In this document: piece by piece, positions 39,765 through 59,941 of the stretch
Layout: the number at the start of each line of letters is the position of its first letter
Numbering within the stretch: the first letter of the stretch is position 1
Source: Mucilaginibacter empetricola
Lineage (GTDB): Bacteria > Bacteroidota > Bacteroidia > Sphingobacteriales > Sphingobacteriaceae
Direction of reading: 5' to 3'
Assembly (NCBI RefSeq): GCF_024808665.1
Contig: NZ_JANUBZ010000017.1
Span: 1 to 64,000 of the forward strand
DNA: 64,000 nt
The notes under the pieces: generated by a model
Database searches by the model: none
The model's input: the letters and a program-made list of their open reading frames with translations, nothing else
What the model was told of the DNA's origin: nothing
Program-made: the position numbers and the translations under genes

Positions 39765-39795
39765 TTGCATTTTAAATCTTATTGTCGTATCTTTA
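39765..39795 (+). promoter_or_regulatory. Candidate promoter of the small-terminase gene
   Basis: TTG (39765-39767) and TATCTTTA (39788-39795) are 20 bp apart and match the Bacteroidota promoter pattern except for the last base. Transcription would start near 39802, which excludes the earliest in-frame start (39782). Confidence 0.45.
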
Positions 39796-39838
39796 CATCA
39801 TTCATATGCCAATAGGCATACTTATCATAATCAACTCC

Positions 39839-40279
39839 ATGTTACAGCCTATTTTTAAAACTGCCACCAAGTTGGCCTCAAAAGCTGATGCCTATTTTAG
39901 TTATATTGAAGGTGAATATCACCTCGAAACCGTGACCGGAAAAGAAAAAAAGATAACAGACCGCGATGCCGAACCTGCTACCCTTGCCGGACTAGCTCTG
40001 TTTTTAGGTTTTAACAGCCGGCAGGATTTTGAAGACTATGAACAAAACGGCGAGTTTGGCTACATACTTAAACGCAGTCGCTTAAGAGTAGAGGCCCTAT
40101 ACGAACGCAAACTACATCAGCAATCGTCCTCAGGTGCTATATTTGCACTCAAAAGCTTCGGTTGGAAAGAGAAAGCTGATGACAAAGCCACCGCTAGCGG
40201 TACTATAAAAAGCCTCAAAATAGAAATTATTGAAACCGGTCATCAACCTGCCGAAAGTGAGAAACAAGTGGCATTGTAG
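39839..40279 (+). CDS. Phage terminase small subunit-like protein
   Basis: From ATG 39839 the product has 146 residues. The start fits the promoter at 39765; an ATG at 39806 is a second choice. It matches Bacteroidota phage small terminases in layout: DRDAEPATLAGLALFLGFNS is the helix-turn-helix region, followed by YILKRSRLRVEALYERKLHQ and GAIFALKSFGWKEKADD. It would recognise phage DNA for packaging. The large subunit is truncated, so it lacks a working partner here. Confidence 0.78.
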   Translation: MLQPIFKTATKLASKADAYFSYIEGEYHLETVTGKEKKITDRDAEPATLAGLALFLGFNSRQDFEDYEQNGEFGYILKRSRLRVEALYERKLHQQSSSGAIFALKSFGWKEKADDKATASGTIKSLKIEIIETGHQPAESEKQVAL

Positions 40280-40318
40280 GCAGAGTTTTCAGCTCGCAGT
40301 TTTCAGTTATTTTTTTCA

Positions 40319-40380
40319 AACCCTCTTTACGAAGTACAGAGGGTCGACCATCCGCCTTTAGGCCCGCTGTTGGGGTGAGT
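40319..40380. repeat. ACTCACCC element, right-end partial copy
   Basis: ACCCTCTTTACGAAGTACAG with GAGGGTCGACCA and the end GGGGTGAGT (40372-40380) match the right half of the element at 23999. The left half is missing. It lies at the stop of a lipoprotein gene inserted among phage genes. Confidence 0.58.
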
Positions 40381-40397
40381 CAATACACTAATGCTTA

Positions 40398-40961
40398 CTA
40401 CCTTGTAAAATTAAACACCGTCGCAATTTCATAAGTTCCTGCGGCCGGGCTTGTCTCACTATACAGATAGTCTGTTTGCAACGTCAAAACCGACTGGCTT
40501 AATTGGCTTATTTTTACGGCATGCGATGCCAAACTATAAACTGGCGGTGTGCCAGAGCCATTGGTGCTGGTAGCAAAACCAGCCCCTCCCAAAATGATAA
40601 AACCTGCTATAGGTACATTCATGCTAAATTGATTACTGGCAAAACTGTACACACCACTGGTGCTATCACTTGCTACCTCTGGCGGTGCTGATAAGATGCC
40701 TCCTGTAGTTAAAGTGTTATAGTAACCCGAACTGGTAAAGGTGCCGCTTTTACCAAAATTGACATCCCCACGGTTAGCAGCTGATGCATTTATCGTAGTA
40801 TCGGTTTGCGTTACACCGTTAACAGATGCAACCATATGTTCCTGTTGCAAAATCCACTTACCCAATAAAAGGCTTTGTTGCGAAGGGGTACTATTGCTTT
40901 TGCCGCACGAATAAAGCAGGCAAATGAACAAGGCTATGGCTAAACAATAAATAGCTTTCAT
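40398..40961 (-). CDS. LLLGKW-type lipoprotein inside the phage island
   Basis: From ATG 40961 the product has 187 residues, with a lipobox at ICLLYSC. The domain starts LLLGKWILQQEHMVASVNGV, like the host lipoproteins at 27650 and 28349, then ANRGDVNFGKSGTFTSSGYY and a long Ser/Thr/Gly-rich segment. It is antisense to the flanking terminase genes and is followed by a partial intergenic element that is also found next to the host lipoproteins. It was probably captured from the chromosome together with its repeat. Confidence 0.68.
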   Translation of the reverse strand: MKAIYCLAIALFICLLYSCGKSNSTPSQQSLLLGKWILQQEHMVASVNGVTQTDTTINASAANRGDVNFGKSGTFTSSGYYNTLTTGGILSAPPEVASDSTSGVYSFASNQFSMNVPIAGFIILGGAGFATSTNGSGTPPVYSLASHAVKISQLSQSVLTLQTDYLYSETSPAAGTYEIATVFNFTR

Positions 40962-41018
40962 AATCAGGAAATACAAGGTCTACACACAAATATAAACTAA
41001 AAACTTAATTCAAAACAA

Positions 41019-41345
41019 ATGATAACCGATCAGCAGGCTTCCGTCCTATTTAACCATAACTACAAGGCTACGGGCCACGTGGTGGTTAACCAGGGCGGCA
41101 CAAGTTCGGGCAAAACATATGCTATTGAACAGGTATTATTTTGCGTGGCCTGCGAAACCGAAAAGTTAGTAATTACTGTTGTAGGCCAAGATATACCTAA
41201 CCTTAAAGCCGGAGCATTACGCGATGCGCAAAGCATTTATTACAACTCGGCCACGCTGCAAACTATGGTGAAAAGTTTTAACAAAACCGATCGCATTTTT
41301 GAGTTCAACAATGGCAGCGCAAAATATTTTAGCTCAAACCATTAA
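41019..41345 (+). pseudogene. Truncated phage terminase large subunit (ATPase N-terminus)
   Basis: The 108-residue frame starts ITDQQASVLFNHNYKATGHV and has a Walker A loop GGTSSGKT at residues 26-33, preceded by VVVNQ, as in PBSX-type large terminases. The family is normally about 400-450 residues with Walker B and an RNase H-like nuclease. Here the frame stops at FEFNNGSAKYFSSNH, before Walker B, and an unrelated minus-strand gene follows. I see no continuation in other frames. Packaging by this protein is therefore not expected. Confidence 0.78.
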
Positions 41346-41392
41346 CAGGGTTAAGTTATAAGCCGAAAGCCCGCTTGGGTAAATTTAACGAT

Positions 41393-42063: not shown

Positions 42064-42297
42064 ATGAATATAAAAATTGCCAACACTCTTTTTAATGATG
42101 GTATTTTCTCGGCTATGTATAAAGCTGGCTTTATTACTGATAAAATTTTTCTGTACCGCGAAGTTTACCTTTGGATAAATGCCCAGATGCTAACCCGCGG
42201 CATCAGTAAAAACCAGGCAGTACTGGAAGCCGAAATAAAATTTAACCGCGACGAACGCACCATCTGGCGTGCGTTGAATAGTTTTCAGGAAAATTAA
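42064..42297 (+). CDS. Small HTH-like phage-associated protein (77 aa)
   Basis: The 77-residue protein begins with NIKIANTLFNDGIFSAMYKA and ends with a helix-turn-helix-like segment, QAVLEAEIKFNRDERTIWRA. I associate this type of small protein with Bacteroidota phage packaging regions, but from memory only. It is a possible DNA-binding accessory. It lies 56 bp before the lepB gene, on the same strand. Confidence 0.5.
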   Translation: MNIKIANTLFNDGIFSAMYKAGFITDKIFLYREVYLWINAQMLTRGISKNQAVLEAEIKFNRDERTIWRALNSFQEN

Positions 42298-42353: not shown

Positions 42354-43451
42354 ATGAACTGGAAATTCCTGTCCAAAAAGAAAACCGATAGCGCTAAACC
42401 AAAAAAATCAAAAACCCGCGAGTGGGTTGATGCTCTTGTTTTTGCCGCTGTAGCTGCTACCATTATCCGCGGCCTGTTGTTTTCGGCTTATGCTATCCCT
42501 TCCGGGTCAATGGAAGGTACCGAGCTTACCGGCGATTATTTGTTTGTAAGCAAGTTTGCATACGGACCAAGGATGCCTATCACCCCTCTGTCTATTCCAT
42601 TTATGGAACCGGTGGTGCATGGTATTAAAACCTATATCAGCTCCTTACAGCTTCCCTATTTTCGTTTGCCTGGATTATCGGACCCTAAAAAAGGTGATAT
42701 TGTAGTATTTAATAAGCCGGAAGAAGCAGATGCCGGTATCCCTGTAGATCAGCGTACCACCCTTATAAAACGTTGCCAGGCAGCCCCCGGCGATCTTTTA
42801 ACTATTGTAAACGCGCAGGTTTACATCAATGGTAAAGCTGCTGTTAATGCACCCAACGCGCAAACGTCATACACAGTAGTCACTGATGGTCAGGACATTA
42901 ACCCGCAAATTTTTCAGGACCTGCATATCGAAGTTAGACAACAGTTGGCAATCAATACATACGAAATGATTATCCCAAATCAAAACTTGGCTACGCTGAA
43001 AGGCTATTCGAACATAAAAAGCATTACCCCGCTGGTGCAACCTGCAGGTGTAGTCGACCCCGAGATATTCCCGCATGATGCCAAATTTAAATGGAACCTG
43101 GATAATTTCGGCCCGCTGGTATTACCTAAAAAAGGCTGGACAGTTAAGTTAAATGATTCTACCCTTACCCTTTACCGCCGTGCTATTGAGGTTTATGAGC
43201 ATAACAAGGTACAAACCGAAGGCAAAGACATTTTAATAAATGGCCAAAAAGCCGACAGCTACACCTTTAAAATGAATTATTACTGGATGATGGGCGATAA
43301 TCGCCACGATTCCCTCGACTCCCGTTTTTGGGGCTATGTTCCCGAAGACCATATCATCGGCAAAGCTATAATCACCTGGATGAGCATTGACTCAACCCAG
43401 GATGCGTTCCACAAAATACGCTGGAACAGAATTCTTAAACCGATAAATTAA
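42354..43451 (+). CDS. lepB: Signal peptidase I
   Basis: The 365-residue enzyme has an N-terminal membrane helix (DALVFAAVAATIIRGLLF), the nucleophile Ser52 in IPSGSMEGT, the general base Lys139 in TTLIKRCQAAPGD, and box E GDNRHDSLDSRFWGYVPEDH near the end. The insert between the catalytic boxes makes it longer than E. coli LepB, as is usual in Bacteroidota. It removes signal peptides at the outer face of the inner membrane. It lies inside the phage island but looks like a normal host gene. Confidence 0.92.
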   Translation: MNWKFLSKKKTDSAKPKKSKTREWVDALVFAAVAATIIRGLLFSAYAIPSGSMEGTELTGDYLFVSKFAYGPRMPITPLSIPFMEPVVHGIKTYISSLQLPYFRLPGLSDPKKGDIVVFNKPEEADAGIPVDQRTTLIKRCQAAPGDLLTIVNAQVYINGKAAVNAPNAQTSYTVVTDGQDINPQIFQDLHIEVRQQLAINTYEMIIPNQNLATLKGYSNIKSITPLVQPAGVVDPEIFPHDAKFKWNLDNFGPLVLPKKGWTVKLNDSTLTLYRRAIEVYEHNKVQTEGKDILINGQKADSYTFKMNYYWMMGDNRHDSLDSRFWGYVPEDHIIGKAIITWMSIDSTQDAFHKIRWNRILKPIN

Positions 43452-43547: not shown

Positions 43548-44270
43548 CTACTTAATAAGTAAGGACAACAAGACCCCAAGTAATGCCGATGATGCAAAGC
43601 TAAACAAGGTGCCTACAAGAATATATTCTGTCTTCTTTTCGGCGTCTTTATCCTTGTCGCCAAAGCGTAATATAGATTTGGCGGTCATTAAAAAACCAAT
43701 GGCTGTATATTGATGGGTAAGTACAAAGGTTAGTATTAACGCCCTTTCGCAAATGCCTATCCATTTGCCTGCGTCGGCCAGCTCATCTGCCGCATCTTTT
43801 TTGGTGGTTAGGTTTTTTCGCCATTTCGCCGTAGCTATTCCTATCAGTATACCCAATGGCCAGGTTACAAAAACATAGCCGAAAGTAATTATCCAAAAAT
43901 TATCATTCAGTATGATGTTACATAGCTCTGTACGAACAGCCTCCCATTGATGCTCTGCAAGAAGCCATATGAATACGATGACCAAAACATGCATCGCCTG
44001 ATCTGCCAGGAAGGTATAGATGTTGTCGGGCAGATAAGATTTAACGGCATCGATAATATAATGAGTAATAAAAATCACGAGCGGTATCCACCAGCAGCCG
44101 TATAGTCCCGAAAAAACATAAGCAAACAGTGTAGTAAGAATTACATGCCATATAAGGCTTGTCGATTTTATTTTCTTTGCTTTTCTATCATCAACCCATG
44201 CTTTGGGTTGCAATACAAAATCAGTAAGTAAATGTGCAATCAACAGGCGTAATAAAAGACTGACAGACAT
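43548..44270 (-). CDS. DUF3307 membrane protein, SatD partner
   Basis: The 240-residue integral membrane protein has about six helices. Its DUF3307 marks are conserved His/Asp pairs in or near membrane helices: HLLTDF (13-18), HYIIDAVKSYL and DQAMHVLVIV. Such pairs resemble metal sites of membrane hydrolases, but no activity is established that I know of. It is downstream of satD on the same strand, 27 bp apart, so the two form an operon. A role as a membrane effector or transducer for SatD is inference. Confidence 0.75.
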   Translation of the reverse strand: MSVSLLLRLLIAHLLTDFVLQPKAWVDDRKAKKIKSTSLIWHVILTTLFAYVFSGLYGCWWIPLVIFITHYIIDAVKSYLPDNIYTFLADQAMHVLVIVFIWLLAEHQWEAVRTELCNIILNDNFWIITFGYVFVTWPLGILIGIATAKWRKNLTTKKDAADELADAGKWIGICERALILTFVLTHQYTAIGFLMTAKSILRFGDKDKDAEKKTEYILVGTLFSFASSALLGVLLSLLIK

Positions 44271-44297
44271 AGGGTTGTTTTTTGATAGATGTATAAA

Positions 44298-44936
44298 TTA
44301 CAACTTTTCTATTTCGGAACTAATAAAATTAATACCTTTTTCCACCTCTTTCCAACGGGCAAACCGCAGGCTATTGGCAACCGCTGGCTGGCTCACATTT
44401 AACTTTCCGGCTATTTTAGCCTGTGTGCCATCTACTGTGTTTAATAGATAATAAATGGTTTCAGCCTGGCTAATGGTCCATTGTTTTATAATCAGGTTAA
44501 TATACATTAAAATGATTTCGTAGGCGCTGTTTTTTTTCTCGTCGGAGGTTGTTAGTCTGATGATCTCGTTTTTATCCATCTCATCAAAACTTCGTCCCGA
44601 AAGGTGAAACGCCTGTCCGTCAGAATCCAGTACGCTATTACCCTTATAAGCTATTTCGCCAATGCCAATAGATAGCCGGGTGCCCAGTTGTTCTGTACTT
44701 TCCCTGTCCGAGTTTATTTTGAACCAGCATATCAGTTGTATGCATTTTCTTAATACTGTAGCAATATCATCCACAATAAATTGGTAACTATCACCACGAA
44801 ACATGCGGGCATCATTTTCATCGCCCACCATTGTTCTTAAAAGTTGCTCAGTTTCTATAACCAACTTCTCCCGCTTATGGTTATCTAAAGTGGTAAAGTT
44901 TTTTATGTCTCCTGTAACTACAGCGTATGTTTTCAT
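44298..44936 (-). CDS. SatD family protein: cyclase-like domain plus HTH
   Basis: The 212-residue protein starts VVTGDIKNFT with Asp10 and has FRGDSYQFIV with Asp49, then RLSIGIGEIAYKGN and GQAFHLSGRSFDEM. The order and spacing copy the metal-binding Asp, second Asp and strand-loop pattern of class III nucleotidyl cyclases. The C-terminus is a helix-turn-helix (TQAKIAGKLNVSQPAVANSL). It is annotated in databases as SatD, function poorly known. A three-unit 29-bp array lies just upstream and may be its operator. Confidence 0.72.
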   Translation of the reverse strand: MKTYAVVTGDIKNFTTLDNHKREKLVIETEQLLRTMVGDENDARMFRGDSYQFIVDDIATVLRKCIQLICWFKINSDRESTEQLGTRLSIGIGEIAYKGNSVLDSDGQAFHLSGRSFDEMDKNEIIRLTTSDEKKNSAYEIILMYINLIIKQWTISQAETIYYLLNTVDGTQAKIAGKLNVSQPAVANSLRFARWKEVEKGINFISSEIEKL

Positions 44937-44961
44937 CGGTACCCTATGTTTTAAATACTAT

Positions 44962-45257: not shown

Positions 45258-45378
45258 CATTACATAAAACAATTATCCCGACCTTTGATCTATGCCAACC
45301 GGCATTAAAAACACAATAGTCCACTAACCCCACTCCGGCAGTTTGCACCTACCAACTTCCGGAATCTTTTCAAGACAT

Positions 45379-46584
45379 ATGAGTTACAAAATTTATCTAT
45401 ACGATACCGATACGGATTGTATTGGCTCGGGCACCTTATCATCATCTTACATACAAGCACAACTGGAAATAGCTGCCGGACAGGATGTAGAAGTTCACAT
45501 CAGCTCTGTTGGCGGCAGCGCTTTTGATGCCATCGCTATTTATGATCTGCTTAAAAAATACCCAGGCAACGTAATCACTTATGTTGATGCTTTGGCCGCT
45601 TCGGCAGCATCAATAGTAGCGATGGGCGGCAAAACGGTAGTAATGAGCAAATACGCACTGCTCATGATCCACAAACCGATGGTAGGCACAGGCGGCAATG
45701 CCGATGAGCTTTTAAAAGATGTGCAGATGTTGAATATAGTCCAATCGCGCCTGGCACAGATTTATATGGACAAAACCGGGTTGGATGGCGTTACTATAAA
45801 CAACTTAATCAACGCCGTCACTTGGTTATCTGCCGATCAGGCCCTCGATCTGGGTTTTATCGATCAGGTAGAAGACTACAACGCTACCATCACCAATAGC
45901 GCCATCATTAAAAATTATATCAACACAGCACCGGCAGTTTACCAGCGGTGCATCAACAAAATCTTAACCCAAAAAAGCAACATGAACATCGAAAACAAAG
46001 AACTTATCGATAAAACCGCGTCGGTTTTAGATAAGATTATGAACTTCTTTAAGAAGGTAGTAAACAAACAAACCATTACCGATAAAGGCGTACTGCATCA
46101 TGCCGGTGAGCTGGACGAGGGCACCGAAGTTTATAACGACGAAGGCATGGACAGCCCGGCAGCGAGTGACACTTACACCACAGCCGACGGCAGTAAAGTA
46201 GCCGTATCGGGCGGCCAGGTACAAAAGATTATCCCGCTGGCAGCTGATCCTGATGCCGACCCAGATGCTGATGATGACGATGATGATGCACCATCAGACA
46301 AATTTAAAGCAGGTAAAAAACCAGTGAACGTTCAAAACAAACTGCAATCGGTTAAAGCCAAGCTGCATGCACAAAACGCCTTGTTATCAGAAGCTAAACA
46401 GGCGTTGGAAGCAGCAAACAGTCGCCTTAAAAAAACAAGAGACGAAGTGAGAAACGAAATCAAGTCAGACTTTACACCCGAGGGATCAAAACGCAGCAAC
46501 AAAGCAAAAACAGAGCCCGCTCCATTCTTCGCCCCGCAAACTCCGCTGGCTCAAAATGCAGTTAAAAAAGCGGTAGCGAAGTAG
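45379..46584 (+). CDS. Head maturation protease (ClpP-like S14) fused to scaffold
   Basis: From ATG 45379 (MSYKIYLYDTDTDC) the product has 401 residues; an upstream TTG-led frame is less likely. The N-terminal 190 residues are a ClpP-type prohead protease: oxyanion VGGS (44-47), nucleophile Ser75 in ALAASAAS, His98 in LLMIHKPM. The C-terminal half has an acidic run (about 290-305) and a long charged coiled coil (ALLSEAKQALEAANSRLKKT), as in capsid scaffolds. Protease-scaffold fusions are known in tailed phages. It directly precedes the capsid gene. Confidence 0.85.
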   Translation: MSYKIYLYDTDTDCIGSGTLSSSYIQAQLEIAAGQDVEVHISSVGGSAFDAIAIYDLLKKYPGNVITYVDALAASAASIVAMGGKTVVMSKYALLMIHKPMVGTGGNADELLKDVQMLNIVQSRLAQIYMDKTGLDGVTINNLINAVTWLSADQALDLGFIDQVEDYNATITNSAIIKNYINTAPAVYQRCINKILTQKSNMNIENKELIDKTASVLDKIMNFFKKVVNKQTITDKGVLHHAGELDEGTEVYNDEGMDSPAASDTYTTADGSKVAVSGGQVQKIIPLAADPDADPDADDDDDDAPSDKFKAGKKPVNVQNKLQSVKAKLHAQNALLSEAKQALEAANSRLKKTRDEVRNEIKSDFTPEGSKRSNKAKTEPAPFFAPQTPLAQNAVKKAVAK

Positions 46585-46691: not shown

Positions 46692-47900
46692 ATGGCTCAA
46701 TTTACATTTACAAACAACACCTATGCCGGTGAAGCACTGGCAGGGTTTATGGCAAGCACGCTGCTGGAAGCTGATTCAGTTAAGCGCGGGCTGCTAACGG
46801 TTATTAACGACGTAAAATCGCGCAAGATAATTCTTGATGTTGATGACAACGTAGTACTACAGGATCCATCGGGCATATTTACCGACCAGGGTACAACTGC
46901 CTTACAAAACGAAAGCTACCTTGACCCGGTAGTGTACGAATTTATGAAACAGGAACAGTGGGACAATCTGATTCAATCATGGGAGGCCCAAAGCCTTAAA
47001 CCTGGCGCCTTTATGGATTACGAAGGTGTGGTTGACCTGTCAGACTTTATGGTGCAGCGTTACCTCACTAAGCTACAAATAGCCAATGAGCGTTTGTACT
47101 GGCTGGGCAAAGGCTCAACTACCGAAGCATCCTTTACAGCTCCGTTTACCGGCTTATTGCCAACTATTTCGGCAGCATCGGGCGTTTACAAAGTGGGGCT
47201 GGGCAAACCGGCAACTTCAATGGCAGCAACAGCAATAGATAACACAGGCCTGGTAACCGTGTCTGATACATCAACCCTTGCCGATGGCGACGTGGTAACC
47301 ATTACCAACGTTACCGGCAGTATTAAAGATACAACTAACAGCACTGGCGGTATAGCTATTCAGGGTCAGTCGTACTTTATACAGATAGCCAGCGCCACTT
47401 CATTTAAACTGGTACGCAACTATAACGAGATCAATACCCGCAAACCGGCAACTTTTACCGGCACTGCAACAGCGGCCACCATAAGCTATATTAATGTAAG
47501 CAACGTGCTATCAGTATTAGGCAGCGTGTATGCACAGCTTGATCCGGCCGACCGTATCCAGGACGATTTTAACTTGCAGATACCTTTACATGTAGGTTAC
47601 GCATACGCTCAGGCACAGGCCAACAAAGCGCTGAATGTTATTAACGCATTTACGGATCTGAAAAAGATGGATTACCTGGGTATTCCACTACAGATCATGA
47701 ATTACTGGCAGGCCAACACTATTTTAGGCGCCCGCTCATCTAACCTGTTTTTAGGGGTCGATCTTTTAGGTGATGCTTCCGAACTATCAACCGTTTACAT
47801 GAAACCTTATACAAACGACGATGTGGTGCGCATGAAAGCCCGTATGAAAGCCGCCGTAAACTTCAAATTTGCTAACGAGCTGTTTTATTTATCAGCGTAG
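46692..47900 (+). CDS. Phage major capsid protein
   Basis: This 402-residue protein follows the protease/scaffold gene, as capsid genes do. It starts AQFTFTNNTYAGEALAGFMA and has long helices and a hydrophobic C-terminus (MKARMKAAVNFKFANELFYL). In the middle (about 185-280) an all-beta insertion, LADGDVVTITNVTG ... QSYFIQIASATSFKLV, resembles the FCCH/Ig-like domain found in phage surface proteins. HK97 fold is inferred from gene order and general profile, not from a signature. Confidence 0.72.
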   Translation: MAQFTFTNNTYAGEALAGFMASTLLEADSVKRGLLTVINDVKSRKIILDVDDNVVLQDPSGIFTDQGTTALQNESYLDPVVYEFMKQEQWDNLIQSWEAQSLKPGAFMDYEGVVDLSDFMVQRYLTKLQIANERLYWLGKGSTTEASFTAPFTGLLPTISAASGVYKVGLGKPATSMAATAIDNTGLVTVSDTSTLADGDVVTITNVTGSIKDTTNSTGGIAIQGQSYFIQIASATSFKLVRNYNEINTRKPATFTGTATAATISYINVSNVLSVLGSVYAQLDPADRIQDDFNLQIPLHVGYAYAQAQANKALNVINAFTDLKKMDYLGIPLQIMNYWQANTILGARSSNLFLGVDLLGDASELSTVYMKPYTNDDVVRMKARMKAAVNFKFANELFYLSA

Positions 47901-48009: not shown

Positions 48010-48600
48010 ATGTCAACAATTTATAATAAAATAAATGCGGGCTTCAGTTTAGGAACTGCCTCGCCTGTTACCGCCGGTATTGAGGATGTGATTTACATCT
48101 TTAACCAGGATGATTTCACATTCACTTTTGATACCACCAATCCGCTCATTGTCACTGGCATCACACCAGTTGGCACCGCTAATATTTACCAGTTCCAGGG
48201 TACTAATAACAGTTTCAATACCAGCTCTAAACTGGCAAAAACATCAGTAGGGCCGCGCTATACTGAGGAAATTGATTTCAATATCGCAGGTTTTTCTGTC
48301 GATATTAAAACGCAGTTAATGGCTATGGGCTATGGCCGCGTATGTGCCATCGCGGTAAACAATTACGGTTCAAGCGATTCGGCAGTTGAGTTATTCGGCG
48401 CAGTAAACGGTTTAATTTTAACCGATGCCGAACGCAGCGCAGCCGATGAAACGGTAGACGGCGGTTACAAGCTAAAACTCACCAATCCCGATAAATTAAG
48501 GGAGCCTTATCCACCTCGCGCAGTATCAATTGCCCCAACAAGCGGCACGGCAACCTATGCCAGCACCATTGCAGCAATTGAAGCGTTGGTGGCAGCGTAA
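48010..48600 (+). CDS. Phage structural protein, tube- or head-like (196 aa)
   Basis: The 196-residue protein has a beta-rich profile: DVIYIFNQDDFTFTFDTTNP, PRYTEEIDFNIAGFSVDIKT and VDGGYKLKLTNPDKLREPYP. Such layouts occur in tail-tube and head-decoration proteins. Its position, right after the capsid gene, suits a decoration protein or a major tail protein. No definite family was recognised. Confidence 0.55.
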   Translation: MSTIYNKINAGFSLGTASPVTAGIEDVIYIFNQDDFTFTFDTTNPLIVTGITPVGTANIYQFQGTNNSFNTSSKLAKTSVGPRYTEEIDFNIAGFSVDIKTQLMAMGYGRVCAIAVNNYGSSDSAVELFGAVNGLILTDAERSAADETVDGGYKLKLTNPDKLREPYPPRAVSIAPTSGTATYASTIAAIEALVAA

Positions 48601-50331: not shown

Positions 50332-50350
50332 ATTTTTTACGCCCAACAAC

Positions 50351-50983: not shown

Positions 50984-51064
50984 GGCACTCTTTTAGGGGG
51001 TATATTGATTTACGACAAAAATCAGTGTAATCCTAAACAAATCAGTGCAATCAAAAAACACACT

Positions 51065-52246: not shown

Positions 52247-53977
52247 ATGAGTGCAACTTATAATTGGACATATAAACCGGGTTCAGATAATCCATATAAT
52301 TTCTCAATACCTTCAACTGAAGATAATGTCAGGCCTACAGGTTATTGCTATATAGCACTTTTTGGTAATGACGTAACTGGGAACGGTAGTCGTCAATATC
52401 CATTTAGAACTATGGGGGCTGCTATTGCTACGTTCCCTAACCAGTTTTATATTATCGGTGGCGGTACTTACCGAGAATCAACTCGAATATCTAATATTAT
52501 TGGCGACGGCGATGTAACTATTGACTTTTCATATCTAGGGAGTTTCGGAGGGACTAACATGAATGCTTATAATATTAAATTTATAGGTAATGGTGTATCC
52601 AATGCAGGCCTTTCAGGAGGAGGGGACGCATATTACAAAGATTGCGCATTCACTTATTGTGGACCGGTAGGGCAAGATTGCACATTAGTCAATTGTATAG
52701 TCGCCAATTTTTCAGGCACATTAATCTCCCAGACCGCATATAGAAGTTGGACAAATTGCACATTTTATAAATGTTTGTACATATATATCAAAAATCAAAG
52801 TTATGTATATCCATTGCGCTCAAGCTGCATTTTTTACGAATGTAATATTTCATTTAATGACACCTGTCCTAATATAATTTATTCGCTTTTTTGGAATTGT
52901 ACATTCGCTTTTTCAAGTATTACCCCCACTATATTTTATCCTTCGATAAGCACAGGGTATACTTATTATACTTCTATAGAGGCATTAATTACCGCTTTGA
53001 ATATTAGTTTTCCAGGCATTGTTTTACCCTTGAATCGATGCATTATGGCTGATCCTCTATTTAACAATATCAACATATTAGATTTTAGCCTTTCACTTTC
53101 AAGTCCTGCGCAAAATTTAAGCTATTATGGAACTTTTGCGGGAGCATCAAGCATTGGATCGTCTATAAAAGCGAGAGCTATTGAAGCCGATGGCAGCTTT
53201 GATTTCTCTACCAATAGTAATCTAAATATTGCTGACGACAGCATAACTTTTGCTAATTCCACTATTGATGGACAAATTGACACACGTCCACAACTCAATA
53301 ATATGGGTCGCATTATAAGCAAAATACCGACTTTTGGTGTAAATGCTGACAGAAATGGTCAATATGTCGATTCTATTCCCGATTTGTCAACTAGTACCTT
53401 AGACACCACAGCTACACTGGTTTATCCGGGAAGTTATTTGGTTGAGAATGGCTCAATATTAAATAACGGCAACACTTATCAACCTGGTGATAGATTTACC
53501 ACGGCGTCAACTGATTTAACTTTTAGCAGTACTACAGGCGGTGTAGTAAGGGAAATTTTAGAAGCCCCCGAACGTCATACCATTATGGCAAGGTTTAATA
53601 ATGGTGGCAATTTTGCATTAAATACGGATGCTTTAGTAGCTGGCTATTGGTACTTTGTTGTCTCTGGCACGGCTTCTTACAATTCTGTTGATTACGAGGC
53701 AAACTCATACTTTAAAGCCGTAGATAACAATAACTGGTCGGGAGAGGCAGTCGTGGAATTGGCTTTTCCTGATGAAATCACTTTACCTTTTCAACATTAT
53801 GATCCTGCATTTACTCCAACATCAAACAATATGGGAGATGTAAGTAGCGGTGCTATCTTAAGGGGTAATGGGGACCCTGCGTACGTCCGGGGTGGTATAG
53901 GCATCGATGAGTTCAACATAAGTTCTAAGCATATGATATTTAGATATTACCTAAGGGCATCAAATTTAACTCCGTAA
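52247..53977 (+). CDS. Parallel beta-helix phage spike/fibre protein
   Basis: The 576-residue protein has the GNDVTGNGSRQYPFRTMGAA opening of DUF1565/pectate-lyase-like right-handed beta-helix proteins, followed by turns rich in N, C, S and aromatic residues up to about residue 300, and a C-terminal beta domain. Such proteins in phages bind or cleave surface polysaccharide. No catalytic triad can be assigned. It follows the collagen-like gene without a promoter gap. Confidence 0.75.
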   Translation: MSATYNWTYKPGSDNPYNFSIPSTEDNVRPTGYCYIALFGNDVTGNGSRQYPFRTMGAAIATFPNQFYIIGGGTYRESTRISNIIGDGDVTIDFSYLGSFGGTNMNAYNIKFIGNGVSNAGLSGGGDAYYKDCAFTYCGPVGQDCTLVNCIVANFSGTLISQTAYRSWTNCTFYKCLYIYIKNQSYVYPLRSSCIFYECNISFNDTCPNIIYSLFWNCTFAFSSITPTIFYPSISTGYTYYTSIEALITALNISFPGIVLPLNRCIMADPLFNNINILDFSLSLSSPAQNLSYYGTFAGASSIGSSIKARAIEADGSFDFSTNSNLNIADDSITFANSTIDGQIDTRPQLNNMGRIISKIPTFGVNADRNGQYVDSIPDLSTSTLDTTATLVYPGSYLVENGSILNNGNTYQPGDRFTTASTDLTFSSTTGGVVREILEAPERHTIMARFNNGGNFALNTDALVAGYWYFVVSGTASYNSVDYEANSYFKAVDNNNWSGEAVVELAFPDEITLPFQHYDPAFTPTSNNMGDVSSGAILRGNGDPAYVRGGIGIDEFNISSKHMIFRYYLRASNLTP

Positions 53978-53980
53978 TAT

Positions 53981-54352
53981 ATGGCTTTCAATATAACAAG
54001 CGGAATGATAGAAGCTAATATGCTTTATCAGGTTAGCGGTTCAATAAGTTATAATTCGGAGACCTATACCAATCAAAACTTCAGGGGAGTAGCGGATGTT
54101 ACTAATTTTTCGGGAGCCGGTATTGTTATTGAGGTCACTGAATTTACAGGGGGAACTGTACTATTTGTGCAGGACCATGATAAGGGCTACAAATTTCCCG
54201 ACCCTCCTGTAACTATGTTGGGCGCAGCTATAAACTTCCAACAAGATTCACAAGATACTATTTTCAATGAGGTCACAAAGATAGAAGGCATGTCGGTAAC
54301 ATTTGCCGATTTTCCTTTTTATCAAATCGACATAATGGAACAAAAAGGGTGA
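53981..54352 (+). CDS. Phage fibre-associated protein (123 aa)
   Basis: The 123-residue protein starts three bases after the beta-helix gene. It is beta-rich: LYQVSGSISYNSETYTNQNF and RGVADVTNFSGAGIVIEVTE. Two short segments of the upstream protein resemble it (YWYFVVSGTASYNSVDYEAN), so it may be a C-terminal fibre module or chaperone derived from that gene. Function unknown. Confidence 0.6.
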   Translation: MAFNITSGMIEANMLYQVSGSISYNSETYTNQNFRGVADVTNFSGAGIVIEVTEFTGGTVLFVQDHDKGYKFPDPPVTMLGAAINFQQDSQDTIFNEVTKIEGMSVTFADFPFYQIDIMEQKG

Positions 54353-54374: not shown

Positions 54375-55478
54375 TCAATTCTTAAACCGTTCTTTAAATT
54401 TCAAAAATCTTCGTTCATAAAAAAAATAGGATATATACGCTATAAGCAAACAAATTGGTATGTTAAAAAGCGGTGAATCAGAATATTTAAATAATCCTCT
54501 CCATGGTTGCTGATTTGTAAACAATTGCTGCCAAACATAAATACTGTAAGATAAGATCCCAATTTTAACCATTATTGGATGATTAAGTATTTTGGACAAT
54601 AAATTATCGTTTTTTAAATTCAATATAATAGTAAGACCGATTAAAAATGCGAATAAATATTCCTTTATGTAATCATTTAAAAAAACTTGATAACGTAATA
54701 TTATAGCGGCAACAAAAACAAAAAAACTAAAAAAGTAGGTGGAAGAATATTTCAAAACAATTATTTTCTTGAAAAGAAATATTGACATGGCCGCTCCTAT
54801 CAAAATTGAGGCTGTTCCCAGTGCAAATAAAAAAGCAAAAAGCCTAATAAATTTAAAAAACAAAGGATAGTTGTTGTATACATTCAATGGTAATAGCCCG
54901 ATCAAAACGATAAATGGCAGAATCAACAAAAACACACCTATAAAACCCAAAAATCTGCTAGGATTTTTGATCAAGAAGAATGGAAAAATCAAATAAAATT
55001 GTTCTTCCACGGACAAACTCCAAAAATGGGCTGTTTGCCAGTTCTTTCCATATGCTATTGGAATATTAACTATATACAATCCCGCAGACAAGAACATTTT
55101 AAAGGTTGTATCAAGGTTAAAAACGATTGTGATAAGGAATAAACAAAATAGGTATAGATAAGCGACGGGAAAAATCCTTAAAGCTCGTCGAACATAAAAT
55201 CGTTTCAATGATACTTCTCCGAATTTAACTTTTTCCTTTAAAAGTAGTGTTGTAATAAGGAAACCACTTATCACAAAAAAAATCTCTACACCTATCTCTC
55301 CATCGAAATATTTTGACCAGCTGAATTTAAATAAATGACTTATTACCACGATTATTATTGACACCGCCCTCAACCCATCCAGTCCTGGGAAATAAGATGG
55401 TTTTAAAATTTCAGGGATTTCTGTGATGTCTGAAGTTAATTTATTCCAAAGTATGTTTAGTTCTTTTTTCAAAACCAT
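54375..55478 (-). CDS. Membrane O-acyltransferase (acyltransferase_3/OafA-like), copy 1
   Basis: The 367-residue membrane protein has about ten helices. Its acyltransferase_3 marks are YFPGLDGLRAVSIIIVVISH with the active-site His, GVEIFFVISGFLITTLLLKE, RRALRIFPVAYLYLFCLF and HFWSLSVEEQFYLIFP. It transfers acetyl or similar groups to surface polysaccharide. It is closely similar to the gene at 55850 throughout and antisense to the phage genes. Phages often carry such genes to change the host surface (lysogenic conversion), which is inferred here. Confidence 0.86.
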   Translation of the reverse strand: MVLKKELNILWNKLTSDITEIPEILKPSYFPGLDGLRAVSIIIVVISHLFKFSWSKYFDGEIGVEIFFVISGFLITTLLLKEKVKFGEVSLKRFYVRRALRIFPVAYLYLFCLFLITIVFNLDTTFKMFLSAGLYIVNIPIAYGKNWQTAHFWSLSVEEQFYLIFPFFLIKNPSRFLGFIGVFLLILPFIVLIGLLPLNVYNNYPLFFKFIRLFAFLFALGTASILIGAAMSIFLFKKIIVLKYSSTYFFSFFVFVAAIILRYQVFLNDYIKEYLFAFLIGLTIILNLKNDNLLSKILNHPIMVKIGILSYSIYVWQQLFTNQQPWRGLFKYSDSPLFNIPICLLIAYISYFFYERRFLKFKERFKN

Positions 55479-55539
55479 ATCGCCAAATAAACCAATTAAA
55501 AATGAAATTTTTCTGCATTAAAAACAACTAATCAAACAC

Positions 55540-55580
55540 AGGAAACGCTACTTGTCTTTTTAAATCTTTGGGATTAAGGA
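55540..55580 (+). pseudogene. Remnant of duplicated holin gene start
   Basis: AAAAACAACTAATCAAACAC with AGGAAACGCTACTTG and TTTTTAAATCTTTGGGATTA copies the leader and first codons of the holin gene at 57018 (AACAACTTATCAAACACATG). The ATG has become AGG and the frame is broken by small deletions. It marks the left end of the duplicated 1.48-kb unit. Confidence 0.65.
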
Positions 55581-55849
55581 AATCAAGCAATATCTATTTC
55601 CTAAGATAAGTTAGTTAGAAACTAAACTCACAATTTCACAGCGTACTTTGAGCTAACTTTAACTAGCACTCAACCATAGCATTTATTTTTTATCTCCAGA
55701 ATGGTAACATTATTACTTTCATAATAGAATAAATGAATTTGGGACAAAAATGGTTTCACATTGACCAATTCTTAAGGATTAAATTTTCACTTCTTTATCT
55801 ACTACTTTTTTTAATACGCTATACATGTATAGTAAACAATCCTTAAATA
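55581..55849. other. Intergenic between duplicated acyltransferase genes
   Basis: This 269-bp AT-rich stretch has no counterpart after the first copy. AGTTAGAAACTAAACTCAC and TTTAACTAGCACTCAACC hold short related words. I see no gene. Confidence 0.4.
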
Positions 55850-56959
55850 TTACACAGTGCTATATTTTCTTTTAAGTTTTAAAAATTTACGTTCATAAAA
55901 ATTATAAGAACAGTAAGCCACAATAAAAAGGACAAGCAAATTCAATAAAATGTTATCACTATACTTAAAGTGCCCACGCCAGGGCTGTTCACGAGTAAAT
56001 AGCTGCTGCCAGATATAAATACTGTAAGAAAGGACTCCAAGTTTAATCATCAACGGATGATTAAGTATTATGGAAAAAAAATTATCCTTTTTTAAATTTA
56101 GTATAATGGTATATCCTATTAAAAGTGCAAACAAATACTGCTTTATATAATCATTCAAAAAGTCCAGGTAGCCTATTACCATCGCAACAATAAAAATAAA
56201 AAAACTTAAAAAGTAAGCTGAAGGCCATTTCAAAACAATCATTTTTTTAAAAAGCAATATTGAAATCGCTGCGCCAATCAGAATGCAGGAGGTTCCCGTC
56301 GCAAATAGAAATTCAAAAAGACGGATAAATTTATGGATTAAAGGATGATTATTATAAAAGTCTAATGGCAGTACCCCTACTAAAACAATCAATGGTAAGA
56401 CCAATAAAAACGCGGCAATAAAAATTAAAAATCTGCCTGGATTTCTGATCAGAAAGAATGGAAAAAGTAAGTAAAACTGTTCTTCCACAGACAAACTCCA
56501 AAAGTGTCCTGTTTGCCAATTTCTTCCATAAACTAATGGAATATTGACTATATACACAGCAGCCGACAAGAACATTTTTAAGGTGGTATTGAGGTTGAAA
56601 ATAATAGTTAGTATTACTAAGCAAAACAGATATAGATAAGCAACTGGAAAAATCCTCAACGCTCTCCTAATGTAAAATTGCTTCAATGATACCTCGCCAA
56701 ACTTAACTTTCTCTTTTAAAAGAAGAGTTGTAATCAGAAAACCACTAATTACAAAAAAAACTTCCACGCCTAGGTCGCCACGAATATATTTTGCCAACTC
56801 CGATGTATAATATACGTGACTTATCACTACGAGAATTATAGACACAGCTCTTAATCCATCTAAGCCGGGGAAGTAGGAGGTTTTTAAAATTTCGGGGATT
56901 TCTGTGATATCCGAGGTCAATTTATTCCAAAGTGTGCTTAGCTCTTTTTTCAAAACCAT
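55850..56959 (-). CDS. Membrane O-acyltransferase (acyltransferase_3/OafA-like), copy 2
   Basis: The 369-residue protein is a close paralogue of the one at 54375. They share MVLKKEL, LWNKLTSDITEIPEILK, YFPGLDGLRAVSIILVVISH, GVEVFFVISGFLITTLLLKE and HFWSLSVEEQFYLLFP. Differences are mostly conservative and concentrated in the second half. The gene and its upstream DNA were duplicated together: starts are 1481 bp and ends 1475 bp apart. Substrate is likely a surface glycan, as for copy 1. Confidence 0.86.
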   Translation of the reverse strand: MVLKKELSTLWNKLTSDITEIPEILKTSYFPGLDGLRAVSIILVVISHVYYTSELAKYIRGDLGVEVFFVISGFLITTLLLKEKVKFGEVSLKQFYIRRALRIFPVAYLYLFCLVILTIIFNLNTTLKMFLSAAVYIVNIPLVYGRNWQTGHFWSLSVEEQFYLLFPFFLIRNPGRFLIFIAAFLLVLPLIVLVGVLPLDFYNNHPLIHKFIRLFEFLFATGTSCILIGAAISILLFKKMIVLKWPSAYFLSFFIFIVAMVIGYLDFLNDYIKQYLFALLIGYTIILNLKKDNFFSIILNHPLMIKLGVLSYSIYIWQQLFTREQPWRGHFKYSDNILLNLLVLFIVAYCSYNFYERKFLKLKRKYSTV

Positions 56960-57017: not shown

Positions 57018-57239
57018 ATGAAAACTTCATCTCTTTTCTCTTTAAATCTTCAGGATTTTGCCAAGGGACTTATCGTGGCTGTTGGCGGGGCTGTAATTGC
57101 GGCCATTCAATCTAGTATCCAGGCTGGTTCCCTTACTTTTAACTGGCAGGTTATCGGCAGCGTTGCTTTGGCCGCGGGTTTGTCGTACCTCGGCAAAAAT
57201 TTCTTCACACCTGCCCAAATTGTAAGATCGGTCCAATAG
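57018..57239 (+). CDS. Phage holin-like protein (73 aa)
   Basis: The 73-residue protein has two membrane helices (LIVAVGGAVIAAIQSSI and VIGSVALAAGLSYLG) joined by a short turn, with a short N-terminal amphipathic part and a polar C-terminus. It is directly upstream of the lysozyme gene, the usual place of a holin that forms the membrane hole at lysis. Its leader and first codons occur again as a broken copy at 55540. Confidence 0.72.
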   Translation: MKTSSLFSLNLQDFAKGLIVAVGGAVIAAIQSSIQAGSLTFNWQVIGSVALAAGLSYLGKNFFTPAQIVRSVQ

Positions 57240-57326: not shown

Positions 57327-57791
57327 ATGAAACTAAGTGATCGTGGCTATGCCATTATTAAAAATTTCGAGGGGCTGCGTTTGTCCGCTTACCGCGATGT
57401 TGCCGGCGTTTGGACTATCGGCTACGGTTCAACCCGATACCATGATGGTAAACCTGTAAAGCCCGGCGACCAATTATCAGGCGAAATGCAGGCCGACGCC
57501 ATTTTCAGAAATACCATGAGCCCGTATGAGGACGCGGTAAATGAGGCAGTAAAAGTCCCTTTAACGCAAAACCAGTTTGATGCCCTGGTTTCCTTTACCT
57601 ATAACGAGGGCACAGGCGCATTGCAGGAGTCGACATTATTAGTAAAACTCAACGAAAAAAACTACGTCGAAGCTGCAACACATTTTATGGCATGGGACAA
57701 AATAACCGATCCGCAAACAGGCAAAAAAATAATTTGTGACACGCTGGTGCAACGCCGTAAAGAAGAAAGCCAGCTATTTATGGCTGCCTGA
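57327..57791 (+). CDS. Phage lysozyme (endolysin, GH24)
   Basis: The 154-residue enzyme has the complete T4-lysozyme-type triad E15, D24, T30 with the normal spacing E-8-D-5-T (NFEGLRLSAYRD, VWTIGYGST). NQFDALVSFTYNEGTGALQE is also typical. It cuts the glycan strand of peptidoglycan. It has no signal peptide, so it depends on the adjacent holin. Confidence 0.93.
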   Translation: MKLSDRGYAIIKNFEGLRLSAYRDVAGVWTIGYGSTRYHDGKPVKPGDQLSGEMQADAIFRNTMSPYEDAVNEAVKVPLTQNQFDALVSFTYNEGTGALQESTLLVKLNEKNYVEAATHFMAWDKITDPQTGKKIICDTLVQRRKEESQLFMAA

Positions 57792-57819
57792 TTGTTAAAT
57801 CTATTAAACATAAACACAG

Positions 57820-58146
57820 ATGACAACAATTGAACACCGCGAGCTAAAGGGCATCACAGTAAAAAATCTGGTGGTAACGGTTATGAGTACGGCCAGTATT
57901 GTAGCATCGGTAATGACTACCTACTTCGGTTTGAAAAACGATATACGCGACATTAAAAGCAGCCAGGAAATTGAAGCCAGAATCAATAATCTTCGCATCA
58001 AAATGCTGGAAGATGAGGTATCGTTGCATCAAAAAGAAGTGGAAGAAATTAAGATAGTTAATCCGGGCGGCCGTCAAACCAATAGAAATTTACGGGTATT
58101 GAAAACAGCAGAACCTGTATTATTGAGTGCTATTCAAAACAAATAA
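57820..58146 (+). CDS. Membrane-anchored lysis-cassette protein (108 aa)
   Basis: The 108-residue protein has a single N-terminal membrane helix (NLVVTVMSTASIVASVMTTY), then a charged coiled coil (RINNLRIKMLEDEVSLHQKE) and a polar tail. The layout of one helix plus periplasmic coiled coil resembles inner-membrane spanins or holin-type proteins such as Gp24.1-like ones. It sits in the lysis block after the endolysin gene. Spanin function is inference. Confidence 0.58.
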   Translation: MTTIEHRELKGITVKNLVVTVMSTASIVASVMTTYFGLKNDIRDIKSSQEIEARINNLRIKMLEDEVSLHQKEVEEIKIVNPGGRQTNRNLRVLKTAEPVLLSAIQNK

Positions 58147-58171
58147 ATAATCAAACTAAAACAAAAATAAA

Positions 58172-58633
58172 ATGAGCTTAAAAACTTTTATCGATAAAAT
58201 ATGGGCCGAAATTAAAACCTTATTTAATGGCTTCCCTGCCGAAATGCAAATAGCTGTTCACATTGGTGTCATAGTGACCGAAAACATTAAAAACTTTGTA
58301 GACTCGCCCGCGGCGGATGTGCTCACTGCTATTATCCCAGGCGACATTGACGACGACGTAAAAAACTGGCTGAGAGCCAAGCTGCCAGGCGTATTAACCG
58401 AGCTTAAACTAGCCGACAGTTGCGCCGGTTTAACAGATGCCAGTCAAATTACCGCATGTGCCATAAAAGTTTTGCAAGGATTGGATGGCGACATACAGAG
58501 CGCATTCCTTCACAATCTATCCATTTTTATAGCGAAAATTGCATCAAATGGTAAACTTACCTGGGGCGATGGTGTTACGATTTTAGAATGGTATTATCAG
58601 AATGAGTTTAAAGCTGCTACGCCAGCAGCTTAA
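58172..58633 (+). CDS. Hypothetical lysis-region protein (153 aa)
   Basis: The 153-residue mostly helical protein contains LKTFIDKIWAEIKTLFNGFP and TLFN...EMQIAVHIGVIVTENIKNFV in the first half and SCAGLTDASQITACAIKVLQ in the middle, with two cysteines. No membrane helix is evident. It is the last plus-strand phage gene. Function unknown. Confidence 0.55.
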   Translation: MSLKTFIDKIWAEIKTLFNGFPAEMQIAVHIGVIVTENIKNFVDSPAADVLTAIIPGDIDDDVKNWLRAKLPGVLTELKLADSCAGLTDASQITACAIKVLQGLDGDIQSAFLHNLSIFIAKIASNGKLTWGDGVTILEWYYQNEFKAATPAA

Positions 58634-58677
58634 GTTAAATCGTTCAAACTTATCCTCTGCAATTTATTGATTTATGA

Positions 58678-59790
58678 TTAACTGTTGCCGGCTGTTTTTA
58701 GTTTGCCAAAGCGTGTCTTCAATTTCAGAAAATACTTTTCATAAAAGAAATAAGATAAACAAGGCACAATTATGATGAATATTAAATTGGAAGGATAAGT
58801 AACTAACCAATGTGGCCATTTTGAACTGCCGTAAACAAACATCTGCTGCCAAATATAAACGCTGTATGACAGCACGCCCAAAAATGATAAGAATCTATTA
58901 TTAAGAAACTTATAAATAAAATCAGTTGAGGGAACTATATTGGCAATGATGATATAAGCCACCAAAACGGATATAATTAAATTGATAAACATTGATTTAA
59001 CGCTATAAAACTGATCGAACCCAAGGTAAAAAATCAGAAAAATAGCCACCAAATTTCCGAATAGTTTATACTGTAACAACCATTTAAAATTTAATTTTTT
59101 ATCGAAAGCAAGCATAGATAGTAAGCAACCAACTGCTATACTTTGAAATTTGATAAAATAATGGGTAAAATAGTATAAAGCCCCGTTTGACAGCGGCTTA
59201 TATAATTCCTGCACACAGCAAATTAGCGGCAATATAGCCACTATAAATATAATGGACCAAAAGAAGGCTTTGTAGCTTTTTTTCAAGATAAACGGGAAGA
59301 TAATATAAAACTGCTCCTCCACAGCGAGCGACCACATATGATTTAATTCGGGCGCATTTTGGTTTTTCCTGAAGTAACTAAAATTCAGAATGTAGCATAT
59401 GGCACCGGCGTATTGAAACCAGGCCGCTGGCGAGTGGTAAAAATAATTGAGAAGAAACACTACAAGGATATACAGGTAAGCCACCGGGAATATTCGTAGT
59501 AAACGCCTAATGTAAAAATCCTTTAATAACAGTGTACCAGTTTGCCTTTGTTCTTTTAAACATAAGGTAGTTATTAAAAATCCACTCAAAACAAAGAAGA
59601 TACCTACCCCCAAGCCTCCATTAAAAATAGTAAGGTAAAAATAATTGCCAGTGAGGCTGAGATGCATAAACACCACCATAATTATGGAAATGCCTCTTAA
59701 ACCATTTAACGAAGGGTAATATTTCTCGTTGAGGGCATCAGAAACAGTAGTTGGCGTATTTGTTGGAGCAGTGGGATTTTGAATTAACAT
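58678..59790 (-). CDS. Membrane O-acyltransferase (acyltransferase_3/OafA-like), copy 3
   Basis: The 370-residue protein has the same motifs as the other two: YYPSLNGLRGISIIMVVFMH, GVGIFFVLSGFLITTLCLKE, RRLLRIFPVAYLYILVVFLL and HMWSLAVEEQFYIIFP. It is more divergent, so it arose earlier or came from elsewhere. Its N-terminal QNPTAPTNTPTTVSDALNEK is longer and Thr-rich. It lies between the last phage gene and the strong terminator at 59912. Confidence 0.84.
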   Translation of the reverse strand: MLIQNPTAPTNTPTTVSDALNEKYYPSLNGLRGISIIMVVFMHLSLTGNYFYLTIFNGGLGVGIFFVLSGFLITTLCLKEQRQTGTLLLKDFYIRRLLRIFPVAYLYILVVFLLNYFYHSPAAWFQYAGAICYILNFSYFRKNQNAPELNHMWSLAVEEQFYIIFPFILKKSYKAFFWSIIFIVAILPLICCVQELYKPLSNGALYYFTHYFIKFQSIAVGCLLSMLAFDKKLNFKWLLQYKLFGNLVAIFLIFYLGFDQFYSVKSMFINLIISVLVAYIIIANIVPSTDFIYKFLNNRFLSFLGVLSYSVYIWQQMFVYGSSKWPHWLVTYPSNLIFIIIVPCLSYFFYEKYFLKLKTRFGKLKTAGNS

Positions 59791-59911
59791 CAGCTATTGT
59801 GAAAAGATACATATTCAGCACGCCAAAATATGTAATTATTTTTTTGTGTATTGAAATATATTATCAATTTATTAAAACAACTAACATCACTTTCATCAAA
59901 CTGTAAATACA

Positions 59912-59941
59912 AGCCCGGCATTAAAGAATGCCGGGCTTTTT
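59912..59941 (+). terminator. Strong intrinsic terminator at the island end
   Basis: AGCCCGGCATT (59912-59922) pairs perfectly with AATGCCGGGCT (59927-59937) and TTTTTG follows. It is preceded on the plus strand by the antisense acyltransferase gene, so it may once have ended the phage transcript at 58633. Confidence 0.85.

Follow-up and report, generated by a model that had tools for sequence, protein, structure and literature searches.

A siphophage-derived packaging cassette of Mucilaginibacter, probably gene-transfer-agent-like where intact and recently truncated in M. empetricola

What are phage head and lysis genes doing in a bacterial chromosome when neither a complete terminase nor a recognisable tail accompanies them? 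We asked this of a stretch of 64,000 nucleotides from Mucilaginibacter empetricola (the window; genome G000), which lies on a 90-kb contig, C17. An initial annotation of the window had described a phage-derived island there, and had offered a decaying prophage, a satellite that borrows packaging from a helper, or a domesticated particle as explanations. Comparison with relatives leads us to a reading that we consider probable, in which the island is one instance of a siphophage-derived packaging cassette that is inherited vertically at one ancestral locus, intact copies resemble gene transfer agents (GTAs), and the window copy has recently been truncated. We prefer the GTA-like reading because there is one copy at one locus, a tree that largely agrees with that of the host, purifying selection, and neither an integrase nor recognised replication genes; a domesticated particle of this kind fits better than a prophage, a satellite or a relic.

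The cassette was compared across 74 genome regions, the window included (G117, on a 3.3 kb contig, was kept outside the set), and gene clusters (c0, c1 and so on) were defined on 20 of them, the window and 19 others. The search for the same gene order in related Mucilaginibacter, which the initial annotation had suggested, revealed a common order across the 74 regions. This begins with the small terminase, the large terminase (TerL, 388-429 amino acids where the copy is complete), c9, c13, c11 (about 700 amino acids), c12 (about 685), the tape measure and c8, and continues with the protease, capsid, c1, c17 (missing from some copies), portal, DUF6712 protein, fibre, variable genes and lysis genes. 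Both the tape measure and a full terminase are recognised in the relative G009. Completeness was scored on 11 genes above length floors in the 64 regions that extend 15 kb or more beyond the portal on its upstream side, and all 11 genes are full-length in 45 of these. Culturable bacteria are among the carriers of intact copies. Among the remaining 19, six carry one of two deletion joints, A or B, which are discussed below; four have one split gene (G025, G051, G062 and G104), three are otherwise rearranged (G076, G122 and G146), and in the last six only the terminase, or the terminase together with c9, is missing, for at least four because the fetched stretch stops there. All 51 full TerLs (51/51) keep the Walker A and nuclease motifs for which they were searched.

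Portal matches at E 1e-3 were found in 83 of 149 Mucilaginibacter genomes and in 75 of the 117 that are of high quality; at 70-100% identity the corresponding numbers are 75 and 68. A protein collection yielded 548 portal homologues, and the best 120 of these 548 are all at least 82% identical. Named matches to the portal or cassette include M. rigui, M. pineti, M. lappiensis and M. oryzae. Outside the genus, in a family sample of 301 genomes, the portal was matched in 7 genomes at 28-38% identity. The cassette is present once per genome, with the exception of one fragmented metagenome-assembled genome (MAG). Some genomes without a close portal retain pieces of it, a full capsid in G089 and a 51-residue piece in G047; the latter (G047:C1:295137-295289) is identical to the N-terminus of the window's capsid. 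A portal of 66% identity, with a related capsid and c1, also appears in L307, a MAG labelled Methylococcaceae, perhaps through binning contamination.

A tRNA-Leu(GAG) gene lies downstream of the cassette in 19 of 26 long regions and in 31 of 38 named loci (the two sets overlap, and named loci below 21 kb as well as L314-L316 were excluded). The window's left neighbours, at 7460-16109, have the same order as the genes upstream of the cassette in G127. Its genome's right neighbours, a tRNA-Leu pair, a BNR-repeat gene and a tRNA-Lys, are found at 80.9-83.0 kb of C17 in inverted order, which suggests that this part was inverted, with one breakpoint where the cassette ends. On C17 this conserved right flank is more than 20 kb from the cassette (59.9-83 kb; window end, L132 and L133). 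For 30 chosen carriers, the tree of rpoB was compared with a tree of portal, c1 and DUF6712. These have 18 of 27 splits in common, compared with a mean of 0.3 and a maximum of 3 when labels were shuffled 1000 times, and the rpoB and cassette distances are correlated (0.76). We read this history as vertical descent with frequent loss.

The structural genes of the cassette are under purifying selection. The ratio of nonsynonymous to synonymous substitution rates (dN/dS) was 0.01-0.07 for the capsid in 20 pairs, 0.02-0.07 for the portal in the 18 unsaturated pairs (two were saturated) and 0.00-0.13 for c1. Pairs of full-length terminases gave 0.02-0.12 and tape measures 0.15-0.45. For G000 against G027 the values were 0.06 (capsid), 0.04 (portal) and 0.09 (protease). 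Relaxed selection, which the initial annotation had named as grounds for abandoning its proposal, was not seen: the capsid and portal values are far below 1.

It may be asked whether these data describe an ordinary prophage in decay, in which a phage like phi46:1 integrated at the tRNA-Leu gene, lost its integrase and replication genes, and has been rotting separately in each lineage. The module order does resemble that of phi46:1, many genomes have lost the cassette, and broken or split copies are present in the window, in the five other joint carriers and in G076, G146, G025, G051, G062 and G104. However, 45 of the 64 regions are complete over a divergence that often brings synonymous sites close to saturation, capsid and portal dN/dS is confined to 0.01-0.07, the examined copies all lack integration and replication modules, and the tree largely follows the host. 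General decay of this kind is, in our judgment, unlikely.

The claim that the island has no integrase and no replication gene was borne out, within the following limits. No tyrosine recombinase (PF00589) was present within the cassette in any of 11 genomes or on the window's 90-kb contig, serine integrases not having been searched in either case; the closest case is G036, with such a gene at about 31 kb from the portal, and in nine genomes the distance exceeds 85 kb. When the phi46:1 proteome was compared with the 74 regions, its protease, portal, tube-like protein, DUF6712-like protein, terminase and c12 counterpart matched in many, and its capsid and tape measure in none at the sensitivity of phmmer. 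Relatives of its integrase, helix-turn-helix (HTH) repressor, primase, helicase and DnaA were found in 0 of 74, as far as the stretches reach. These results bear on a second alternative, an active, host-specific temperate phage or satellite that re-enters the same tRNA-Leu site by integration in trans. Since tRNA genes are a usual kind of attachment site, the tRNA-Leu neighbourhood would suit such an element, as would the variation of accessory genes between copies. The lack of a recombinase in the cassette and of replication genes of the phi46:1 type nevertheless argues against it, as do the single copy per genome, the largely host-congruent tree and the conserved flank genes, and we regard it as quite unlikely.

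Several observations weigh against the GTA-like reading. The chief one, if the system is supposed to be strongly useful, is its absence from about two fifths of the high-quality genus genomes (49 of 117 have no close portal). The rpoB sister of the window strain, G018, is among the genomes without a close portal, and on a tree of 60 genomes, of which 30 had been picked for lacking one, the portal switches between present and absent at least 17 times. This scattered absence is more loss than a valued system would show. Within the stretches no tRNA-Leu gene lies beside the cassette in 7 of the 26 regions and 7 of the 38 loci, and in G122 the terminase is about 118 kb away. One conflict between the rpoB and cassette trees has support of at least 90, and the rpoB tree is weak at its deep nodes. 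In many comparisons dS is above 1, and the dN/dS of the cassette is several-fold above that of rpoB (0.004-0.03, same pairs). Wobble sites at the deletion joints show no excess conservation, and it is possible that an integrase acts in trans. Finally, the proposed GTA function is argued by analogy.

The window copy of the cassette and its surroundings have the following features.

7460..16109, strand not assigned: ancestral left flank of eight genes (c32, one unnamed, c43, c57, c58, c20, c25, c21), located by tblastn of G127/G120 genes on contig C17
37581..38165, minus strand: left neighbour directly before the cassette (cluster c22, 8 of 20 regions), by clustering
39782..40279, plus strand: small terminase subunit (c10); PF16677 (GP3_package) 9.7e-14, phrog_606 1.1e-17
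40398..40976, minus strand: antisense accessory gene (cluster c16); a relative's member matches Lipocalin_4
41019..41345, plus strand: large terminase stub of 108 amino acids, TerL through EFNNGS and then out-of-frame tape-measure sequence; phrog_979 7.3e-5
41318..41319, plus strand: deletion joint A, TerL ...AATGGCAGC fused to GCAAAATATT, the tape-measure end
41320..41361, plus strand: tape-measure remnant, the last 14 codons (QNILAQTINRVKL and stop), by comparison with relatives' tape-measure ends
42064..42297, plus strand: small conserved cassette gene c8, 77 amino acids, 18 of 20 regions, by clustering
42354..43451, plus strand: signal peptidase I accessory gene (c36), also in G027, G120 and G130; PF10502 2.9e-40
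43548..44936, minus strand: two accessory genes, one DUF3307 and one for a 212-residue protein with a sub-threshold HTH match (Pfam)
45343..46584, plus strand: ClpP-like head maturation protease with a C-terminal extension (c4); PF00574 4.7e-27, phrog_94 5.1e-59
46692..47900, plus strand: putative major capsid protein (c0), 402 amino acids, by position after the protease; phrog_11320 6.8e-17
48010..48600, plus strand: tail-tube-like protein (c1), 196 amino acids, by predicted fold and profile match to phi46:1 gp05
48682..48924, plus strand: small conserved gene c17, 80 amino acids, 11 of 20 regions, by clustering
48937..50226, plus strand: portal protein (c2); phrog_11226 8.6e-80, 548 homologues
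50321..50983, plus strand: DUF6712 protein of the head-tail region (c5); PF20459 1.4e-35
51005..52234, plus strand: collagen-like fibre (c6); PHROG tail-fibre matches
52247..53977, plus strand: 576-residue protein after the fibre, variable among relatives (cluster in 2 of 20 regions); weak phrog_4577 tail match, 0.0031
53981..54352, plus strand: 123-residue protein with no Pfam or PHROG family match
54375..56959, minus strand: two acyltransferase accessory genes (cluster c14), GC 0.31; the first matches phrog_3333 3.2e-36, the second is placed by clustering
57018..57239, plus strand: small protein before the endolysin (c31), holin-like by position only, no family match
57327..57791, plus strand: GH24 endolysin (c23); PF00959 2.7e-41, phrog_7 1.3e-53
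57820..58633, plus strand: two small genes, c15 and c19, with which the cassette ends, by clustering

The frames of the window's cassette genes are open, in agreement with the earlier description of an intact capsid operon. The small terminase, the 108-residue TerL stub, the head protease, the portal, DUF6712, the collagen-like protein and the GH24 lysozyme had been named correctly, as judged from the PHROG and Pfam matches. The phage part ends at about 58633, and not at 59941 as had been proposed, because 58678-59790 groups with the acyltransferases. The position of the portal after the capsid, rightly noted, had been taken as an abnormality; it is normal in this lineage, because phi46:1 and BS-TP3 have the same order.

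The large terminase is indeed incomplete. It has been cut at one clean joint, however, and has not eroded: its stub is 68% identical to residues 2-106 of a relative's 406-residue large terminase, ends in EFNNGS (codon 100), and passes between 41318 and 41319 into GCAAAATATT, the end of the tape measure. What the deletion removed runs from the remainder of the terminase through c9, c13, c11 and c12 into the tape measure, most of which is gone. The stretch lost at joint A measures about 11.9 kb in G027, and that lost at joint B measures 13.5 kb in G009. A single recent deletion, of about 12 kb as judged from G027, has fused codon 100 of TerL to the last codons of the tape measure. Because this one event removed the rest of the terminase, the window copy is predicted to be unable to package by itself. 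A complete terminase elsewhere in the genome would have changed this picture; the draft genome of G000 contains no further large terminase and no c12, the tape measure, c9, c11 and c13 not having been searched genome-wide. Tape-measure remnants are almost unchanged (in G000 1 residue of 13 has changed), and the deletions therefore appear young. The window copy is freshly truncated and stands at the start of decay in this strain. Of the explanations offered earlier, decay describes this one copy and not the genus-level cassette, which we take to be domesticated, while the domesticated particle is supported at the level of the genus and not by the freshly truncated copy.

The same truncation is found elsewhere. 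Joint A is identical in two further genomes, Mucilaginibacter sp. OK098 and sp. L196, and joint B, in which the same terminase base is joined to base 260 of the capsid gene, occurs in three (G008, M. oryzae and M. segetis). When viral contigs were scanned for the exact patterns, joint A was found on 3 and joint B on 5, and in each group one contig belongs to a genome already counted. Terminase sites fitting the search pattern, tallied over redundant loci, comprised 47 that were intact, 12 with joint A, 16 with joint B and 0 joined in any other way. One tree of 78 copies (G146 and G025 omitted) implies at least 4 separate origins of joint A and 7 of joint B, and with them no fewer than 11 lineages; L258, which matched no tree gene, is not included in the 11 events.

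Four origins of the joints were considered and rejected. Homologous or microhomology deletion does not fit, as no shared sequence spans the joints, which display neither overlap nor repeat. Conservative site-specific recombination likewise does not fit, given the lack of shared core bases at the crossover. Maintained recombination sites are not supported, in that synonymous conservation at the joint sites is not above expectation (percentiles 5 for TerL, 68 for the capsid and 27 for the tape measure); at two sites an individual glutamine codon does exceed the average conservation. Nor do the stubs favour transfer of a deletion allele between species. For G064 and G039 the highest stub identity is to their own relatives (88% and 86%). 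The stubs of G000, G127, G008 and G055 match nothing above a background of 72-76%, and genomes that share the joint do not head these matches; the best match of the G008 stub is G000, a joint A genome, by 0.1 point.

That joints without any overlap fall on the same nucleotides in 11 or more lineages speaks for a specific cutting mechanism, for which short repeats and conservative site-specific recombination do not account. Ku is encoded in 11 of 11 genomes tested and in 1 of 14 control genomes; end joining is therefore available, and cutting followed by end joining is possible. We infer that the same exact deletion recurs in this manner, by cutting at fixed sites and Ku-type end joining by the host. 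Both ends of the deletion would be cut by a putative nuclease and then rejoined. The three sites share a loose register (GANNTYNNNAAN) with cut offsets differing by 4, a pattern seen after the fact and without a control, and this register would fit 4-base 5' overhangs that are filled in before joining. One may go further and suppose that the cassette has a built-in off switch, recurring across species, in which a sequence-specific double-strand cut in TerL and at one of the two partner sites, in the capsid gene or at the tape-measure end, followed by fill-in and Ku-type joining, independently gives the exact deletion in each lineage and stops both particles and lysis; we hold this to be a doubtful extension. 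In G076/L160 (Mucilaginibacter sp. E4BP6) an inversion between c11 and the capsid splits both genes, and its capsid breakpoint, about 20 bases from site B, is near this deletion site and not at it.

The deleted copies raise the question of whether loss of the tail and terminase produced something new, a head-only domesticated particle in which capsid, portal and lysis genes have acquired another function. Three of the six deleted genomes keep the protease and a full capsid, and the head genes of G000, G127 and G064 have open frames and for the most part do not outpace those of intact relatives in their evolution. Relative-rate counts revealed no general acceleration in deletion genomes, the exceptions being G000 (capsid 22:10) and G039 (capsid 11:1, c1 9:4), with G055 and G008 in the opposite direction in several genes. 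The deletions look young, however, which leaves little time for decay to show; the joint-B genomes have also lost the N-terminus of the capsid, and the G000 capsid has more unique changes than that of its relative (22 as against 10). A head-only particle is for these reasons very unlikely. The satellite of the initial annotation, which would borrow packaging from a helper, was not upheld, since close relatives carry a complete terminase and tape measure and the loss is a recent deletion.

The capsid (c0) has full-length matches of 71-92% identity within the genus, and it is putatively identified by its position and by its match to phrog_11320, a family without an assigned function. To this extent the earlier assignment stands, and comparison by profile did not confirm a family. 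The predicted model, with a confidence (pLDDT) of 48, was too poor for use; the profile found nothing in the PDB beyond two chance-level matches, and gave probabilities of 0.1% and 17.8% against the proteins in the capsid position of BS-TP3 and phi46:1. There was also one weak phage match. The 196-residue protein c1 appears to be tail-tube-like. Its model (pLDDT 75) matched predicted viral proteins in BFVD, one of them named "Major tail protein" (E 2.2e-8 and a TM score of 0.63), and its profile matched phi46:1 gp05 with a probability of 96.8%. A fold search of the PDB gave only weak neck and tail-tube matches (best E 2.1e-3), and a sequence search of the PDB gave no relative. Hence the statement that the island has no visible tail is correct for the tape measure, reduced to a remnant, and not for this protein. 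Members of the DUF6712 cluster match phi46:1 gp08, a virion protein, in 52 of the 74 regions. The holin is suggested by its position before the endolysin, with no family match in support.

Accessory genes differ among copies. Their proteins were scanned with Pfam for 84 of the 114 representatives of at least 90 amino acids, from 159 clusters in 18 genomes, and for integration or replication families beyond those already named the negative result covers 25 of the 69 families. In the window, the DUF3307 gene and its 212-residue neighbour cluster with nothing in the 19 compared regions. Three clustered minus-strand acyltransferase genes (54375-56959, 58678-59790) lie at or next to the lysis end, one of which matches O-antigen acetylase-type families, and similar genes recur at the lysis end in relatives. 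Lipocalin-like genes (cluster c16) recur in antisense at differing points of the cassette in several genomes, and directly upstream of it several genomes have a RES/Xre toxin-antitoxin-like pair (clusters c27 and c28; L122:1756-2798).

It remains to compare the cassette with known systems. The capsid-forming phage-inducible chromosomal islands (cf-PICIs) encode head genes and take tails from a helper phage. The window copy alone, with head genes and little tail, could suggest a satellite of this type, but head genes without a full tail occur only in deleted copies, and head and packaging genes without tail are not the normal state, as the cassettes of relatives include a tape measure and tail genes of their own. 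Nor is there a tyrosine integrase or anything related to the phi46:1 primase (the search did not extend to satellite regulators such as AlpA), and we consider such a satellite highly improbable. The phages phi46:1 (NC_021800) and BS-TP3 (PQ571276) come closer. Both share with the cassette the protease, capsid position, portal, small structural protein and lysis genes, and in phi46:1, as in the cassette, two structural proteins and then the tape measure come after TerL. Portal identity to the two is only 28-32%. Both phages carry an integrase, and phi46:1 in addition a primase, a helicase and an HTH protein, for which the cassette has no matches; it has a related module in similar order, without the integrase, repressor and replication genes of a phi46:1-like prophage.

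Among characterised GTAs, PMC12946183 names those of Rhodobacterales, Desulfovibrio, Brachyspira, Bartonella, Caulobacter and Methanococcus; it also describes GTAs as hard to tell from defective prophages, and for Bacteroidota it reports lateral transduction. PMC8987985 refers to GTAs as domesticated defective phages, and PMC7947584 ties RcGTA to headful packaging. In a literature search, largely outside subscription papers and preprints, no described GTA in Bacteroidota, Bacteroidetes or Mucilaginibacter turned up among the papers listed. By analogy with these agents, an intact cassette would build tailed particles, fill them with host DNA in a non-specific manner, and lyse the cell to release them. 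GTAs are vertically inherited, defective, siphophage-like clusters of structural and packaging genes that are under purifying selection and lack integration and replication genes, and the cassette is likewise. Its head, packaging and tail cluster is intact at the level of the genus (45 of 64 regions), though not in the window copy, and a fixed, vertically inherited locus under purifying selection is found, with the tRNA-Leu and tree exceptions given above. It differs in its Bacteroidota host and phi46:1-like ancestor, the sequences of known agents lying outside the comparison, and in its frequent loss and recurrent exact deletion. If the GTA-like reading is true, this mode of gene exchange would extend to the Bacteroidota.

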